Shown in pieces: positions 4,414 to 11,260 of a DNA stretch of 11,260 bases; positions within the stretch are counted from its first letter, which is position 1, and each line of letters begins with the position of its first letter. The notes beneath the pieces are model-generated. The model did no database searches and was not told the DNA's origin. It saw only the letters and a list, made by a program, of their open reading frames with translations. This stretch comes from an uncultured Erythrobacteraceae bacterium (lineage in GTDB: Bacteria; Pseudomonadota; Alphaproteobacteria; Sphingomonadales; Sphingomonadaceae): positions 1-11,260 of the forward strand of contig CAMLQG010000100.1 in assembly GCA_946482075.1 (NCBI GenBank), read 5' to 3'. The position numbers and the translations under genes are program-made.

Positions 4414-5784
4414 GTGAACAGCCGCCGGATTTCATTGCTCGCCGCGTGCATTCCCGCAATACTCCTGATGGTCGCTCCGTCGACGGCCACGGCGCGCAAG
4501 GCGAAAGTCGCCAAGGAACAGGCGCCTTCGCCCGCAATCCAGGCCCTGATCGACCAGACGCCCCAGAAGGCGGCGGTCCAGTCCTATTACGGCCGCTGGC
4601 GCGGACCGGCGTGGTTCGACGACAACGGCCGTTCGACTGCTGCCCTGATCGCCATTCTGCGCCGTGCGCCGCTGGATGGACTGGCCGCCGGCCCGACGCT
4701 CGCCAACCGGGTGGAGGAGGCGGCACGCTTGGCATCTTCCGGCAATCCGGCGGATCGTATCGCAGCGGGACGCGTCCTGTCGGCGGCCTGGCTTGCCTAT
4801 GTGGAAACGATCCGGCAGCCGGTGGGCAACATGATCTATGGCTACCCTTCGCTGGGGCCCAAGCCGGTCGAGGCCGATCAGATCCTGTCCGCCGCCTCCG
4901 CTGCGCCTTCGCTCGAACAGCATCTGGCCGAAACCTCGGCCGTCAATCCGATCTATGCGGAGCTTCGCCAGGCCGCATGGCAAGCGATGCAGGCCTCGCC
5001 CGGCCCGGGGCCGGATCCGCGCATCGTGGCGAACCTGGCGCGCCTGCGATCCCTGCCCAACGCGCAGCGCTTCGCATTGATCAACGTCGCGACGCAGCGC
5101 ATGCAGATGTTCGAGAACGGGCAGCCGGTGGATTCGATGAAAGTGATCGTCGGCACCAAGGAACTGCCGACCCCGATGATCAGCAGCGTGATCTATTACA
5201 CCACTTTCAATCCTTACTGGAACGTGCCCGATCATCTCGTGCGCAAGACGGTGGCTCCAAACGTGATCCGGCAGGGCCAGGCCTATCTCAAGGCGAGAGG
5301 CTATCAGGTGATGTCGGACTGGACGGGCGACGCCACGGTCGTGCCTGCCGGCAGCATCGATTGGAAAGCGGTGGCGGCCGGTTCGGTCAAGATCCGCGTC
5401 CGCCAATTGCCGGGGCCCGGCAACTCGATGGGGAAACTCAAATTCTCCTTCGCGAACGGACAGGACATCTTCCTGCACGATACGCCGTCGAAGGAACTGT
5501 TCGCGAAATCCGAACGCGATCTGAGCAATGGCTGCATCCGGCTCGAGGATGCGCGGCGGTTCGGGCGCTGGTTGCTGGGCCGTGATCCGGTTGCCCCCTC
5601 GGCAGAGCCCGAGCAATTCGTCAAGCTGCCCCAAGGCGTGCCGGTCTACGTGACCTATCTCACCGCGCAGCCGGTCAGCGGCCAGATCACCTATGCGTCC
5701 GACATCTATGGGTGGGATCGCATCGCCGGCGCGCAGAGCGCTGCGGCATCCTCTGCTTCCTCGGATGCCGTTTCCGCCAAATAG
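4414..5784 (+). CDS. Secreted L,D-transpeptidase of the YcbB/LdtD type
   Basis: This 456-aa enzyme is predicted to form meso-DAP to meso-DAP (3-3) cross-links in peptidoglycan, or to attach substrates to it, in the periplasm. The start GTG at 4414 has AGGAGA (4400-4405) 8 nt upstream and gives a clean Sec signal peptide: basic n-region, hydrophobic core at about 7-21, likely cleavage after 'TATA' near residue 27. An in-frame ATG at 4387 is possible but has a badly spaced Shine-Dalgarno. Residues 38-200 resemble the scaffold region that precedes the catalytic domain in YcbB proteins. The YkuD catalytic domain covers about 219-390. It carries His355 in 'FLHDTPSK' and the nucleophile Cys374 in 'SNGCIRLED', the YcbB spacing of HDTP...S-x-GC-x-R. 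At 456 aa it is shorter than E. coli LdtD (615 aa), and I see no separate peptidoglycan-binding domain. The Ala/Ser-rich C-terminus looks disordered. Family assignment is firm; the exact cross-link made is inferred. Confidence 0.92.
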   Translation: MNSRRISLLAACIPAILLMVAPSTATARKAKVAKEQAPSPAIQALIDQTPQKAAVQSYYGRWRGPAWFDDNGRSTAALIAILRRAPLDGLAAGPTLANRVEEAARLASSGNPADRIAAGRVLSAAWLAYVETIRQPVGNMIYGYPSLGPKPVEADQILSAASAAPSLEQHLAETSAVNPIYAELRQAAWQAMQASPGPGPDPRIVANLARLRSLPNAQRFALINVATQRMQMFENGQPVDSMKVIVGTKELPTPMISSVIYYTTFNPYWNVPDHLVRKTVAPNVIRQGQAYLKARGYQVMSDWTGDATVVPAGSIDWKAVAAGSVKIRVRQLPGPGNSMGKLKFSFANGQDIFLHDTPSKELFAKSERDLSNGCIRLEDARRFGRWLLGRDPVAPSAEPEQFVKLPQGVPVYVTYLTAQPVSGQITYASDIYGWDRIAGAQSAAASSASSDAVSAK

Positions 5785-5871: not shown

Positions 5872-6729
5872 TCAGCCGCGTTCAGGCGCCGGCGGAGGCG
5901 GCGGAGGCGGTGGTGGGCAAGACTGATCAGCCGGAATCCGCATGCCATCCGGGCAGGTCTGCATTGCTGGCGGCGGCGGAGGCGGTGGCGGAGGCGGCGG
6001 TGGCGGGGGAGCGGGTTCGGCAGCCGGAGCGCCGAAATTGTAGCTCAAAGTGGCCAGAATGCTGTGCGTCTTGAGCTTGCCCGAACCGAACAGGCCCAAA
6101 GTATCGCCACCCGCCGTGTCGACCGTTCCCTCGAAGTCGAGGTTCTGTGTCTGAAAATAGCGATATTTCAGGCCGAGATCGACATTCTGGGTGATCGCGT
6201 AGCGGACGCCCGCGATCAGCTGCCATGCCCAGGCGCTGTCCTTGTCGTCGACCATCTTGACGCTGGCGCGGCCCGCACCGCCGCCGGCATAGAAGCTGAA
6301 ACCGTTCTCGTCACCGAGATCGACCAATGCATTCACCATCCCGGAAACCACGCTGGCGCGGTTGCTGGCGAAGAAGTCGTCCGGATCATAGGGACCGGTA
6401 TCGGGCAGGCCCAGATCGGTCGCCAATGCGGGACTGAAATTCAGGCTTTTGGTCTTGAGGCGCTTGTAGGACGCCTCGACCTCGGCGCGGATGATACCAA
6501 AATCATAGCCGAGGACGGCACCGACTTCCCAGCCGGGCTTCTTGTAGCGCGTGCTTACGCCGTTCTCATAAACCAGAACGTCCGGGCCATCGACGATCGC
6601 GAGATCGAGATCGGTGCGTTCGCCGATGACGCCGCCCCCTTCGAACCCGAGATAGGGCTGGCCATCGCGCGCCAATGCCGGTGTGGAAAGTGCCGCCAGT
6701 GCGACGGCCGATAGTATCAATTTTCGCAT
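5872..6729 (-). CDS. Outer-membrane beta-barrel protein (OmpA-like N-domain) with polyproline tail
   Basis: This 285-aa protein has a signal peptide 'MRKLILSAVALAALSTPALA' cleaved after residue 20. A small barrel follows at about 23-233, with alternating aromatic/polar strands such as 'GWEVGAVLGYDFGIIRAEVE' and 'VDLGLKYRYFQTQNLDFEG', ending at 'ATLSYNFG'. This fits the OmpA/opacity-type eight-stranded barrel family. After it come a run of 14 prolines (241-254), a 17-residue segment with Cys259 and Cys271 that could form a disulfide, a run of nine prolines (272-280) and the end APERG. OmpA proteins of sphingomonads usually, from memory, have a peptidoglycan-binding OmpA domain after such a linker; here it is absent. 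The stop and the terminator follow with no remnant. The start ATG (6727-6729) has AGGAGG at 6737-6742 with 7-nt spacing. Function beyond an outer-membrane structural or pore role is unknown. Confidence 0.88.
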   Translation of the reverse strand: MRKLILSAVALAALSTPALARDGQPYLGFEGGGVIGERTDLDLAIVDGPDVLVYENGVSTRYKKPGWEVGAVLGYDFGIIRAEVEASYKRLKTKSLNFSPALATDLGLPDTGPYDPDDFFASNRASVVSGMVNALVDLGDENGFSFYAGGGAGRASVKMVDDKDSAWAWQLIAGVRYAITQNVDLGLKYRYFQTQNLDFEGTVDTAGGDTLGLFGSGKLKTHSILATLSYNFGAPAAEPAPPPPPPPPPPPPPPAMQTCPDGMRIPADQSCPPPPPPPPPAPERG

Positions 6730-8186: not shown

Positions 8187-9395
8187 CTACTCGTGGCGCA
8201 GCGCGTCGATGGGGTTGAGACTGGCCGCGCGGCGGGCCGGGAAATAGCCGAACACCACGCCGATCAGCGCAGAGATCACGAACGCGATGAGGTTGATCTG
8301 CAGGTCGAAAGTCCACGGCACCTGCATCAGCGGCGTGGCGACCGCGATCACCAGCTGCGCCAGCATGAGCCCGATAAGACCCCCCAGGCAGGACAGGACC
8401 ACCGCTTCCACCAGGAACTGCAGCAGCACTTCATTGGCGACCGCGCCGATCGCCAGGCGGATGCCGATCTCGCGCGTTCGTTCGGTAACGGAAACCAGCA
8501 TGATGTTCATGATCCCGATCCCGCCCACCACCAGGCTGATCGCGGCCACGGCGGCGACGATGCGGGTCAGCAGCGTGGTGGTGCCGGTCAGCGTGTCGCT
8601 GATCTGCTTGGTGTCGAAGATATTGAAATTATCGTCCCTGCCCTGCGTGATCCGGCGCCGTTCGCGCAGCAGATCGGTCAGCTGCGTCTGCACCTGCGAA
8701 GTGGAATAGGTCTTGTCCACGCCGACCAGGATCATGCGGATATCCGTGCTGCCGGTGAAGCGGCGCTGCACCGCTTTGATCGGCATGATCACCACATCGT
8801 CCTGATCGCCGCCGAAGCCCGCTTGCCCGCGCGTGGAAAGCGTACCGATGATGTCGCAGCTGACATCGCCCACGCGGAAGCGCCGGCCCACGGCTCCGCC
8901 GCCGCGGAAGAGGTTCTTCTGCACGGTGGAACCGATGATGCAGACGGCCTTGCCCGCTTCCTCCTCCATGGGCGTGAACAGCCTGCCGTCGGTGAGCGGC
9001 CAGGGCTGGACTTCGAAATAGGCGGACGTCGTGCCGTTGACCGTGGTCGACCAGTTGGCCCCTTCATAGATCGCCGTCGCGGTGGATTGCGCCTGCGGAG
9101 CCACAGCCGTCACGCCGGCGATCTGCTGCTGGATCGCGGTCACGTCGGCCGGATCGAAATCGGGCGGCCTCGGCCCCCCGCCTCCCCGTCCGAAACCCTG
9201 CCCGGGGCGCAGCTGCAGGACATTGGTCCCGAGCGCGGCGATCTGTTCCTGCACCGCCGCGGTGGTCGCCTTGCCGAGCGTGGTCATCGCCACCACCGCG
9301 CTCACCCCGATGACGATCCCGAGGATCGTCAGGAACGATCGCAGCATGTGCCGGCGGATGGAACGCAGCGCGAGCAGGAAGATCGTGCCCAGCAT
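8187..9395 (-). CDS. MacB-type ABC transporter permease (FtsX-like)
   Basis: This 402-aa inner-membrane subunit of a tripartite transporter has four predicted membrane helices at about 20-40, 278-302, 328-352 and 366-386. A large periplasmic domain lies between the first two (about 41-275, MacB periplasmic core type). 'SVTERTREIGIRLAIGA' (about 302-318) is the conserved cytoplasmic segment of the MacB/FtsX fold that contacts the ATPase. Such pumps do not carry substrate through the membrane; they use ATP hydrolysis to drive periplasmic substrates through an adaptor and a TolC-like channel. A Gly-rich loop occurs near residues 66-76. Unlike E. coli MacB, the ATPase is a separate protein, encoded just upstream with stop and start overlapping by one base (TGATG at 9397-9393). 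The substrate cannot be told from sequence. The symbol is left blank because MacB proper is a fusion. Confidence 0.94.
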   Translation of the reverse strand: MLGTIFLLALRSIRRHMLRSFLTILGIVIGVSAVVAMTTLGKATTAAVQEQIAALGTNVLQLRPGQGFGRGGGGPRPPDFDPADVTAIQQQIAGVTAVAPQAQSTATAIYEGANWSTTVNGTTSAYFEVQPWPLTDGRLFTPMEEEAGKAVCIIGSTVQKNLFRGGGAVGRRFRVGDVSCDIIGTLSTRGQAGFGGDQDDVVIMPIKAVQRRFTGSTDIRMILVGVDKTYSTSQVQTQLTDLLRERRRITQGRDDNFNIFDTKQISDTLTGTTTLLTRIVAAVAAISLVVGGIGIMNIMLVSVTERTREIGIRLAIGAVANEVLLQFLVEAVVLSCLGGLIGLMLAQLVIAVATPLMQVPWTFDLQINLIAFVISALIGVVFGYFPARRAASLNPIDALRHE

Positions 9396-10108
9396 CAGAA
9401 GCTCACTCCGGCCCGGCCGGTCTGTTCGATCCGTTCCACCAGCCCGTCGAGGAAGTGGACGATGGTGCGGGCATAGGCGGCCATGTCCGGCTCATGCGTC
9501 ACCATCAGCACGGTGATTCCGGCATCGCGGTTGAGGCTGGTGAGGAGTTCCATGATCTCGACCGAACGCTCGCTGTCGAGATTGCCGGTCGGCTCGTCCG
9601 CCAGAAGCACGGCCGGATTGGTCACGATGGCCCGTGCGATCGCCACACGCTGCTGCTGGCCGCCGGAAAGCTCGGCCGGGGTGTGGTCCCACCAGTCCTT
9701 GAGGCCCACCTTGTCCAGCGCCGCCATCGCCGCTTCCCGCCTCGCGCCCTTTTCGTCGCCGCGATAGAGCAAGGGCAGCTCGACATTCTCCAATGCGGAG
9801 GTCCGCGAGAGAAGGTTGAAGCCCTGGAATACGAAGCCGAGATATTTCCGCCGCAGCAGCGCCCGCTGGTCGCGATCCAGCGTCTCCACATGATGGCCCT
9901 TGAACAGGAAGGTCCCCGCGCTCGGCACGTCGAGGCAGCCCAGTATGTTCATCGTAGTGGACTTGCCCGAACCGGACGGCCCCATCACGGCGACGAAATC
10001 GCCCTGCCTGATGTCGAGGTCGACGCCCTTCAGCGCGTTGAACGCGGTCGGGCCTGTACCGTAGACCTTCGTCACGCCGCGCATAGAGATCAGCGGCTGA
10101 TCAGCCAC
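9395..10108 (-). CDS. MacB/LolD-type ABC transporter ATPase
   Basis: This 237-aa nucleotide-binding subunit powers the neighbouring permease. All ABC motifs are intact: Walker A 'GPSGSGKST' (43-51), Q-loop Gln95 in 'FVFQGFNLL', signature 'LSGGQQQRVAIARA' (147-160), Walker B 'VLLADEPTGNLDS' (167-179) with catalytic Glu172, and the switch His205 in 'VTHE'. The best start is GTG at 10108-10106, preceded by the purine-rich GGGAGGGGG. It overlaps the adaptor gene's 3' end by 8 nt and yields the usual N-terminus 'ADQPLISMRGVTKVYG'. An in-frame start at 10180 would add 24 low-complexity residues and a long overlap, and is rejected. The motif set and pairing with a MacB-like permease place it in the macrolide-exporter/lipoprotein-release group of ATPases. 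The Gly-Asn-Leu-Asp D-loop is typical of that group. Confidence 0.94.
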   Translation of the reverse strand: MADQPLISMRGVTKVYGTGPTAFNALKGVDLDIRQGDFVAVMGPSGSGKSTTMNILGCLDVPSAGTFLFKGHHVETLDRDQRALLRRKYLGFVFQGFNLLSRTSALENVELPLLYRGDEKGARREAAMAALDKVGLKDWWDHTPAELSGGQQQRVAIARAIVTNPAVLLADEPTGNLDSERSVEIMELLTSLNRDAGITVLMVTHEPDMAAYARTIVHFLDGLVERIEQTGRAGVSF

Positions 10109-11260
10109 CGCCCCCTCCCCGACGCTGCCCGCCGCCGCCGCTTCCGCGGCGCGATCCGCTTTCCTCATCCGAACCGGCAAGCTGTCCGGTGATGATCGTC
10201 ATGCCGGGTTTGAGGCCGCCCGAAAGGACTTCCGTGTTCGATCCGTCGCTGTCGCCGGTGGTGATGCTGATCGGCTTCGGCTTGCCATCCTCGCCTACGA
10301 CATAGACCGTCTGGGTCGCGCCGCGGCTCAGCGTGACGCTGCGCTGGCTCTGGCCGCGGCGGGAAGGCCGGGCAGTGATGGCCTTGGTGATGCCGCCGGA
10401 ATCATCGCCGGCCGCAGCGCCCGATTGGGGGGTGAAACGCAGGGCGGCATTGGGCACGAGCAGCACGTTCTTCTTGTCGGAAGTCACGATATCCGCCGTC
10501 GCCGTCATGCCCGGCCGCAATTCGAGCTTGGTATTGTCCACCGTGAGATCAGCCGCATAGGACACCACCTGTCCGGTGCTGGCCGAGCCCGATGCGCCGG
10601 ACGAAGCCGAGGAGGACGAACTCGCGGATTCGGCCGAAAGGTTGGAACCGATCTCGACCAGCGCGATCGAGGCAGGGAACGTCCGTCCAGGGAACGCATC
10701 GACGGTAAAGGTCGCGCGCTGTCCTTCCTTCACGGCGCCCACATCCGCCTCGTCGATCGCTACCTCCAGCTTCATCTGGGAGAGATCCTCGGCAATCACG
10801 AACAGGGTCGGCGTGTTGAAGGATGCAGCCACGGTCTGGCCTGGATCGACCTGCCGGGCGAGGACGACGCCGGAAACGGGCGAGCGGATGATCGCCCGGT
10901 TACGCTGGGTCTGGAACTGCGAAAGGTTGGCCTGGCTGGCCACTACATTGGCTTCCGCCACCCGCAGTGCAGCCACCGCGCGCTGGGCATCCGCGCGGCC
11001 CGCCTGCAATTCCGTATCGGACGGCACGCGGCCGTTGGACAGGCGATGGACTTCCTCGAGCCGGGCGAGCTGCGCCCGAGCTTCCGCCACCGTCGCCCGC
11101 GCCTGCTGGACTTGCGCTTGATTGGCCGCGAGCTGGGCCTGCCCTTGGCGAATCTGATCCTCGATCTGTTCCGGATCGATTTCGGCCAGCAGCCAGGTCG
11201 CCCCAGCGTCGGGCGTGAACAGCTTGACCACGGGCGCCGGGTCGAAGTCAGGGTTCTGCA
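10101..11260 (-). CDS. MacA-like periplasmic adaptor (HlyD family), 5' end missing and apparently chimeric
   Basis: The adaptor links the MacB-like permease to an outer-membrane channel. The frame is open from the window edge to TGA at 10103-10101, with about 385 residues visible. In order: a long alpha-helical hairpin rich in Ala/Gln ('EQIEDQIRQGQAQLAANQAQ' onward), a half-lipoyl segment 'IRSPVSGVVLARQVDPGQTV', the beta-barrel 'KLEVAIDEADVGAVKEGQRA' with a Ser-rich insert ('SAESASSSSSASSGAS'), the membrane-proximal domain, and a Gly/Arg-rich tail ending in GGGGG. What precedes the hairpin is odd. A MacA-type adaptor should show a signal or membrane anchor and the first lipoyl half ending in '...GQLLAEIDPEQ'. 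Here 'LLAEIDPEQ' is preceded by 'VVKLFTPDAGATW', which is not adaptor-like. The true start is not in the window. The gene overlaps the ATPase start by 8 nt. Confidence 0.88.
   Translation of the reverse strand, partial: QNPDFDPAPVVKLFTPDAGATWLLAEIDPEQIEDQIRQGQAQLAANQAQVQQARATVAEARAQLARLEEVHRLSNGRVPSDTELQAGRADAQRAVAALRVAEANVVASQANLSQFQTQRNRAIIRSPVSGVVLARQVDPGQTVAASFNTPTLFVIAEDLSQMKLEVAIDEADVGAVKEGQRATFTVDAFPGRTFPASIALVEIGSNLSAESASSSSSASSGASGSASTGQVVSYAADLTVDNTKLELRPGMTATADIVTSDKKNVLLVPNAALRFTPQSGAAAGDDSGGITKAITARPSRRGQSQRSVTLSRGATQTVYVVGEDGKPKPISITTGDSDGSNTEVLSGGLKPGMTIITGQLAGSDEESGSRRGSGGGGQRRGGGGG
11169..11260 (-). other. DUF2958-like coding fragment fused in frame to the adaptor
   Basis: On the - strand the last codons of the window read 'QNPDFDPAPVVKLFTPDAG' then 'ATWLLAEIDPE'. 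From memory this matches the N-terminal region of DUF2958 proteins ('..PVVKLFTPDAGATWLLTELDPE..'), small proteins of unknown function usually carried by plasmids and integrative conjugative elements. In DUF2958 the next residues would be similar to 'DPDIAFGLCDLG'; here the adaptor hairpin follows instead. Both families share the 'LLxEIDPE' stretch (about 11169-11192), which is the obvious point of crossover or misjoining. The match was not checked by search. Confidence 0.6.

Follow-up and report, generated by a model that had tools for sequence, protein, structure and literature searches.

The closest known counterparts of the locus analyzed here fall into two protein families. One is the MacA-type, or RND-like, adaptor of MacAB-type ABC exporters (Pfam HlyD_D23; NCBIfam TIGR01730 and PRK11578). 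The other is DUF2958 (Pfam PF11171), which PMC9127768 refers to as a domain of unknown function, and which we find in plasmids that carry integrase and ParB-type genes. A third point of comparison is mis-assembly at contig ends. Metagenome contigs may be chimeric, according to PMC6843070, and extension of contig ends by wrong reads is described for viral data in PMC7953547.

The window, that is, the whole stretch of 11,260 nucleotides that was analyzed, resembles each of these in part. Like the MacA-type system, it encodes the 362 C-terminal residues of an adaptor, after which come distinct open reading frames (ORFs) for an ATPase and a MacB-type permease; however, it has DUF2958 sequence in place of the first 101 residues of the adaptor protein P0002. 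Like DUF2958 of the integrase/ParB plasmids, residues 3-30 of the terminal ORF match the family, and the DNA is 86-88% identical, but only an inner piece of the gene is present, with A at residue 25 and E at residue 30, whereas the listed members mostly have T and D. As in contig-end mis-assembly (PMC7953547; PMC6843070), foreign sequence lies at the edge of assembled sequence, although the cited cases are viral and within one genome, and ours is a probable case.

We conclude that the join is very probably an artefact that arose when the end of a contig was extended by a read that was chimeric or misjoined. The pump adaptor itself is likely ordinary, and the DUF2958-adaptor fusion is likely not a real feature. 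The features of the window are collected in Table 1.

Table 1. Coordinates of features in the window and the evidence for each
Feature	Coordinates	Strand	Evidence or comment
Foreign tail, inner piece of DUF2958 gene (frame residues 1-24)	11187..11260	-	PF11171; 88% DNA identity over 91 bases to L096
Junction zone LLAEIDPE	11169..11192	-	crossover likeliest 11187-11190; P0002 allows 11169-11190
MacA-type periplasmic adaptor, C-terminal 362 residues to stop	10101..11189	-	identical to P0002 102-463; HlyD_D23, HlyD_3
ABC transporter ATPase, probably same pump	9395..10180	-	ABC_tran E 3.4e-32; ORF as listed, true start may be internal
MacB-type permease, probably same pump	8187..9395	-	MacB_PCD E 4.3e-49, FtsX E 1.7e-16
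L,D-transpeptidase	4414..5784	+	P0242, 100% identity over 98% of query

Two parts of the terminal reading frame

A minus-strand ORF of 385 residues (10101-11258), whose start reads QNPDFDPAPVVKLFTPDAGATWLLAEIDPEQIE, reaches the right edge of the window. Its first residues, QNPDFDPAPVVKLFTPDAGATWLLAEIDPE, match the Pfam DUF2958 profile: residues 3-30 score 38.3 bits (E 1.9e-9; cut-off 21). When the tail is searched in isolation, the match covers profile positions 21-48 of 111. The whole 111-position domain is not present in the tail, and the remaining upstream part would fall past the window edge. With the 30-residue tail as the tblastn query, 21 plasmid records match, 18 of which have an annotated DUF2958 gene at the match. 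The similarity of the tail to DUF2958 is far beyond chance.

The remainder of the ORF contains the core domains of HlyD/RND adaptors, with HlyD_D23 (E 2.3e-15) and HlyD_3 (E 4.3e-11) both above the Pfam cut-off. Among NCBIfam models, TIGR01730 (RND_mfp) scores 91.4 bits, slightly under its cut-off of 94.9, and PRK11578 (MacA) scores 85.9 bits against a cut-off of 342. The adaptor is adjoined by the ATPase (ABC_tran) and permease (MacB_PCD, FtsX) ORFs. Because these two ORFs follow it, we assign the ORF as the adaptor of a MacAB-type exporter. The window thus has 71-74 bases that match DUF2958, in the same reading frame as a MacA-type adaptor gene that is otherwise ordinary. The initial annotation had proposed this arrangement, with an adaptor downstream and DUF2958 upstream in one frame, and both halves proved real by Pfam (PF11171; HlyD_D23 and HlyD_3) and tblastn. 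Its suggestion that the two parts be searched separately against protein families was followed, and the tail was recovered as DUF2958 and the rest as an adaptor.

MacB functions are split in this operon (8187-10180, minus strand) between the permease ORF and a separate ATPase ORF; one half of the 648-position NCBIfam model PRK10535 (MacB) matches the former, and the other half the latter.

Ordinary starts of related adaptors

Over 362 residues, the 463-residue adaptor protein P0002 and the window do not differ. Identity begins exactly at window residue 24, a Leu with codon 11189-11187, and runs from there to the end (P0002 102-463). Before the join, P0002 reads ...DVNDRVVAGQA, which is of the same type as in the other aligned adaptors. 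P0002 has 101 extra N-terminal residues, and the N-terminal membrane anchor and first lipoyl half are missing from the window's adaptor.

P0002 is recorded on a single contig of 22,257 bases. P0242, which matches the window's L,D-transpeptidase and whose start, read as M, is a GTG codon in the window at query residue 10, is likewise recorded on a single contig, also of 22,257 bases. Equal size is no proof, but we infer that these are one contig carrying the window's locus with a whole adaptor gene. Because both proteins lie on a contig of this size, the adaptor is whole in an assembly that apparently comes from the same strain. At the protein level, what is probably the same locus is seen without the junction in another assembly, with 362 identical residues preceded by a normal N-terminus.

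The comparison of adaptor starts in relatives, another check put forward with the first reading, gave the same picture. A DUF2958 motif was found in none of 120 adaptor proteins listed among 7942 relatives, nor in any of the 69 adaptor loci, which span up to about 13 kb apiece. As a positive control, the DUF2958 pattern finds 12 of 14 DUF2958 loci, with the broken pieces L082 and L085 left out, and 113 of 120 DUF2958 proteins. Starts are ordinary in all eight aligned relatives, and VGSQxSG, an ordinary adaptor motif ahead of the join, occurs in every one of the 120 listed proteins; an odd but native adaptor N-terminus was rejected on these two counts. An old fused family was likewise rejected, given that no fused member appears among the 120 listed relatives.

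At the level of loci, 57 of the 69 fit our first pattern for a normal start. Nine others (L042, L043, L045, L046, L047, L053, L054, L056 and L057) have ordinary starts by eye, with a slightly different motif, and the remaining three (L055, L068 and L069) match too incompletely or too remotely for the start to be read. In the phylum, 44 of 200 sampled genomes have an adaptor relative at E 1e-20. Among the 49 matches listed for this sample, 47 start at query residue 19 or later, and the two earlier ones start at residues 6 (G471) and 14 (G434).

Position of the join and sequence shared across it

The stretch LLAEIDPE had been described as common to both families, and about 24 bases (11169-11192) as shared between them. 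The short motif xLxEIDPx does occur in frame in both. However, judged from residue frequencies, the full stretch fits neither family completely. Residue 23 is A, P, V, T, E, I or S in the listed adaptor proteins and Leu in none of 120. For DUF2958, we took the 120 best matches to one query, four of which do not fit the residue pattern; residue 25 is T, S or I, and Ala in none of the 116 that do. A looser DUF2958 pattern agrees in having no Ala at this residue, with one C. The exception lies outside the listed 120: a more distant DUF2958 locus, L102, reads CTGCTGGCCG, with Ala at residue 25. Because Leu in first place is foreign to the adaptors and Ala in third place to the listed DUF2958 proteins, the 24-base overlap is an upper bound.

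DNA alignments are in line with this limit. The nearest DUF2958 DNA (L096) is alike in 67 of 74 bases over 11260-11187, and then in 13 of 18 over 11186-11169. For the other nine DUF2958 loci compared with the tail DNA, the corresponding values are 45-66 of 74 and 13-16 of 18. The join most likely lies at about 11187-11190, by this comparison, and anywhere in 11169-11190 is allowed. The overlap with the nearest DUF2958 genes would amount to a few bases, about 3-4 should the adaptor itself use CTG for this Leu, the codon found in 27 of 52 adaptor relatives. A shared stretch of 21-22 bases would require a true DUF2958 parent unlike the nearest known genes.

The junction was also compared with other places where the two genes share sequence. 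We used 520 pairs, consisting of 10 of the 19 loci from the DUF2958 search, two of which (L070 and L098) are the same DNA, and 52 adaptor loci; L095 had been rejected as a DUF2958 locus because it is a chance match. The longest shared DNA word sits at the junction in 12 pairs and elsewhere in 508, and shared words are at most 13 bases at the junction versus up to 17 elsewhere. When one DUF2958 protein is compared with P0002 eight residues at a time, five identities are reached in six of 49,704 comparisons, three of them at the junction, which is one of the places where the two proteins are most alike. Broader sampling of protein windows took every sixth protein from each list (20 x 20, from 120 and 120), and 20 of the 400 pairs were dropped for having no motif. 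In 273 of the remaining 380 pairs the junction ranks with the best places, a weak result, since 233 of the 273 are tied with other places.

These observations bear on how the join arose. The adaptor and DUF2958 genes share the short motif xLxEIDPx in the same frame, and in the proposed mechanism the assembler at this motif, or a template switch during library preparation, would step from the sphingomonad chromosomal adaptor into a DUF2958 gene that probably belongs to another replicon or organism. We infer the artefactual origin, the window edge as a contig end, and a chimeric molecule or k-mer misjoin as the step that produced the join. The tail, truncated by the window edge, falls short of the usual length of a short read, which would favor an artefact. 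An overlap of a few bases, as with the nearest DUF2958 DNA, would be too little for a k-mer misjoin. Because the DUF2958 DNA found gives no support for a shared 24-base k-mer, we give equal weight to a k-mer misjoin and to a chimeric read or template switch. Joining at a short similarity is consistent with a chimeric library molecule and with contig extension by a wrong read; real microhomology recombination is the least likely of the three. Retention of the reading frame says little, in that any random join is in frame one time in three.

The initial annotation had left the choice between recombination through microhomology and a misjoin of short reads, with the edge position favoring the latter. 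Its preference for an artefact is supported, because P0002 is identical from residue 24 with a normal N-terminus before it, and because no DUF2958-started adaptor exists in the loci and listed proteins surveyed; the shared 24-base k-mer it invoked is not.

Source of the tail and competing explanations

The closest DNA to the tail comes from DUF2958 genes outside the order sample. G001 is the Novosphingobium MAG of L001, and 33 of 396 genomes from its order contain a match at E 1e-3. Many of these matches are short; the best-scoring are 83% identical over 58 bases and 76% over 78. In the phylum sample of 398 genomes, six reach E 1e-8, with 88%, 87% and 86% identity over 91 bases in the best matches. 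The DUF2958 loci at 86-88% identity (L070, L071, L096, L097 and L098) lie outside the 396 sampled order genomes, although the genomes of L096-L102 could belong to the order while being outside that sample. A DUF2958 gene identical to the tail was not found, the best in the sampled genomes being at 88%. Sphingomonad names are absent from the 21 plasmid records matched by tblastn and from the 28 of a second plasmid search, and three exact tail patterns, the first of which runs two bases into the adaptor side, have no match in viral contigs.

Of the 24 genomes with adaptor relatives that were searched (corresponding to 24 of the 69 loci), 11 have a DUF2958 gene. These genes are mostly of the (K/R)LFNP type, and 13 pieces are alike to the tail in 45-59 of 92 bases; a fourteenth, L082, lacks the part of the gene that corresponds to the tail. 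Given that DUF2958 in the adaptor genomes is distant and that closer matches lie elsewhere, the donor of the tail is likely, on sequence similarity, something other than the window's own chromosome.

The alternative that survives best is a real rearrangement in part of the population, in which a DUF2958 mobile element recombined with the adaptor via microhomology and left an in-frame hybrid, removing the membrane anchor and first lipoyl half and thereby inactivating the pump. We regard this as improbable. The overlap of a few bases would suit microhomology-mediated joining, and the frame is kept across the join. The setting of DUF2958 also speaks for it: in the two plasmids examined, both typed as conjugative, the gene has a site-specific integrase, a PDDEXK nuclease and a ParB-type protein in the same segment, and a DUF2958 gene occurs in 11 of the 24 genomes. 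However, the tail is the interior of a DUF2958 gene and not the end of an element, the same adaptor protein has a normal start in P0002, no second case occurs in 69 adaptor loci, and the DUF2958 genes of those 24 genomes, L082 aside, are the distant ones described above. A true new gene class, with DUF2958 as the N-terminal domain of an adaptor, is hardly credible: the ORF is uninterrupted and Pfam recognizes each of its parts, but no such adaptor is among the 120 listed of 7942 relatives, DUF2958 ends after about profile position 48 of 111, and the product would be without the first lipoyl half and membrane anchor.

If the junction were true, loss of the anchor and a dead pump would follow, and the locus would be of modest interest as a case in which a mobile element naturally cost the cell an efflux adaptor. 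With an artefact as the preferred explanation, the locus is a caution that a short foreign tail, joined in frame at a chance shared motif, can mimic a gene fusion. Here the apparent fusion was exposed by an identical protein, P0002, from another contig.

Three further observations were made. A similar segment, in the order integrase, nuclease, MFS, DUF2958 and ParB, occurs in Hydrogenophaga and Pseudomonas aeruginosa plasmids (L070 4001-4090 and L071 4001-4090). In Novosphingobium lindaniclasticum (G012, the genome of L012), the DUF2958 pieces L082 and L085 lie about 3.7 kb apart on one contig and cover profile positions 1-61 and 50-110, as if a DUF2958 gene had been interrupted. Finally, an ORF at 5872-6729 (minus strand) of the window encodes, as judged by eye, a putative outer-membrane protein that has, close to its C-terminus, two long stretches of proline, of 14 and 9 residues.
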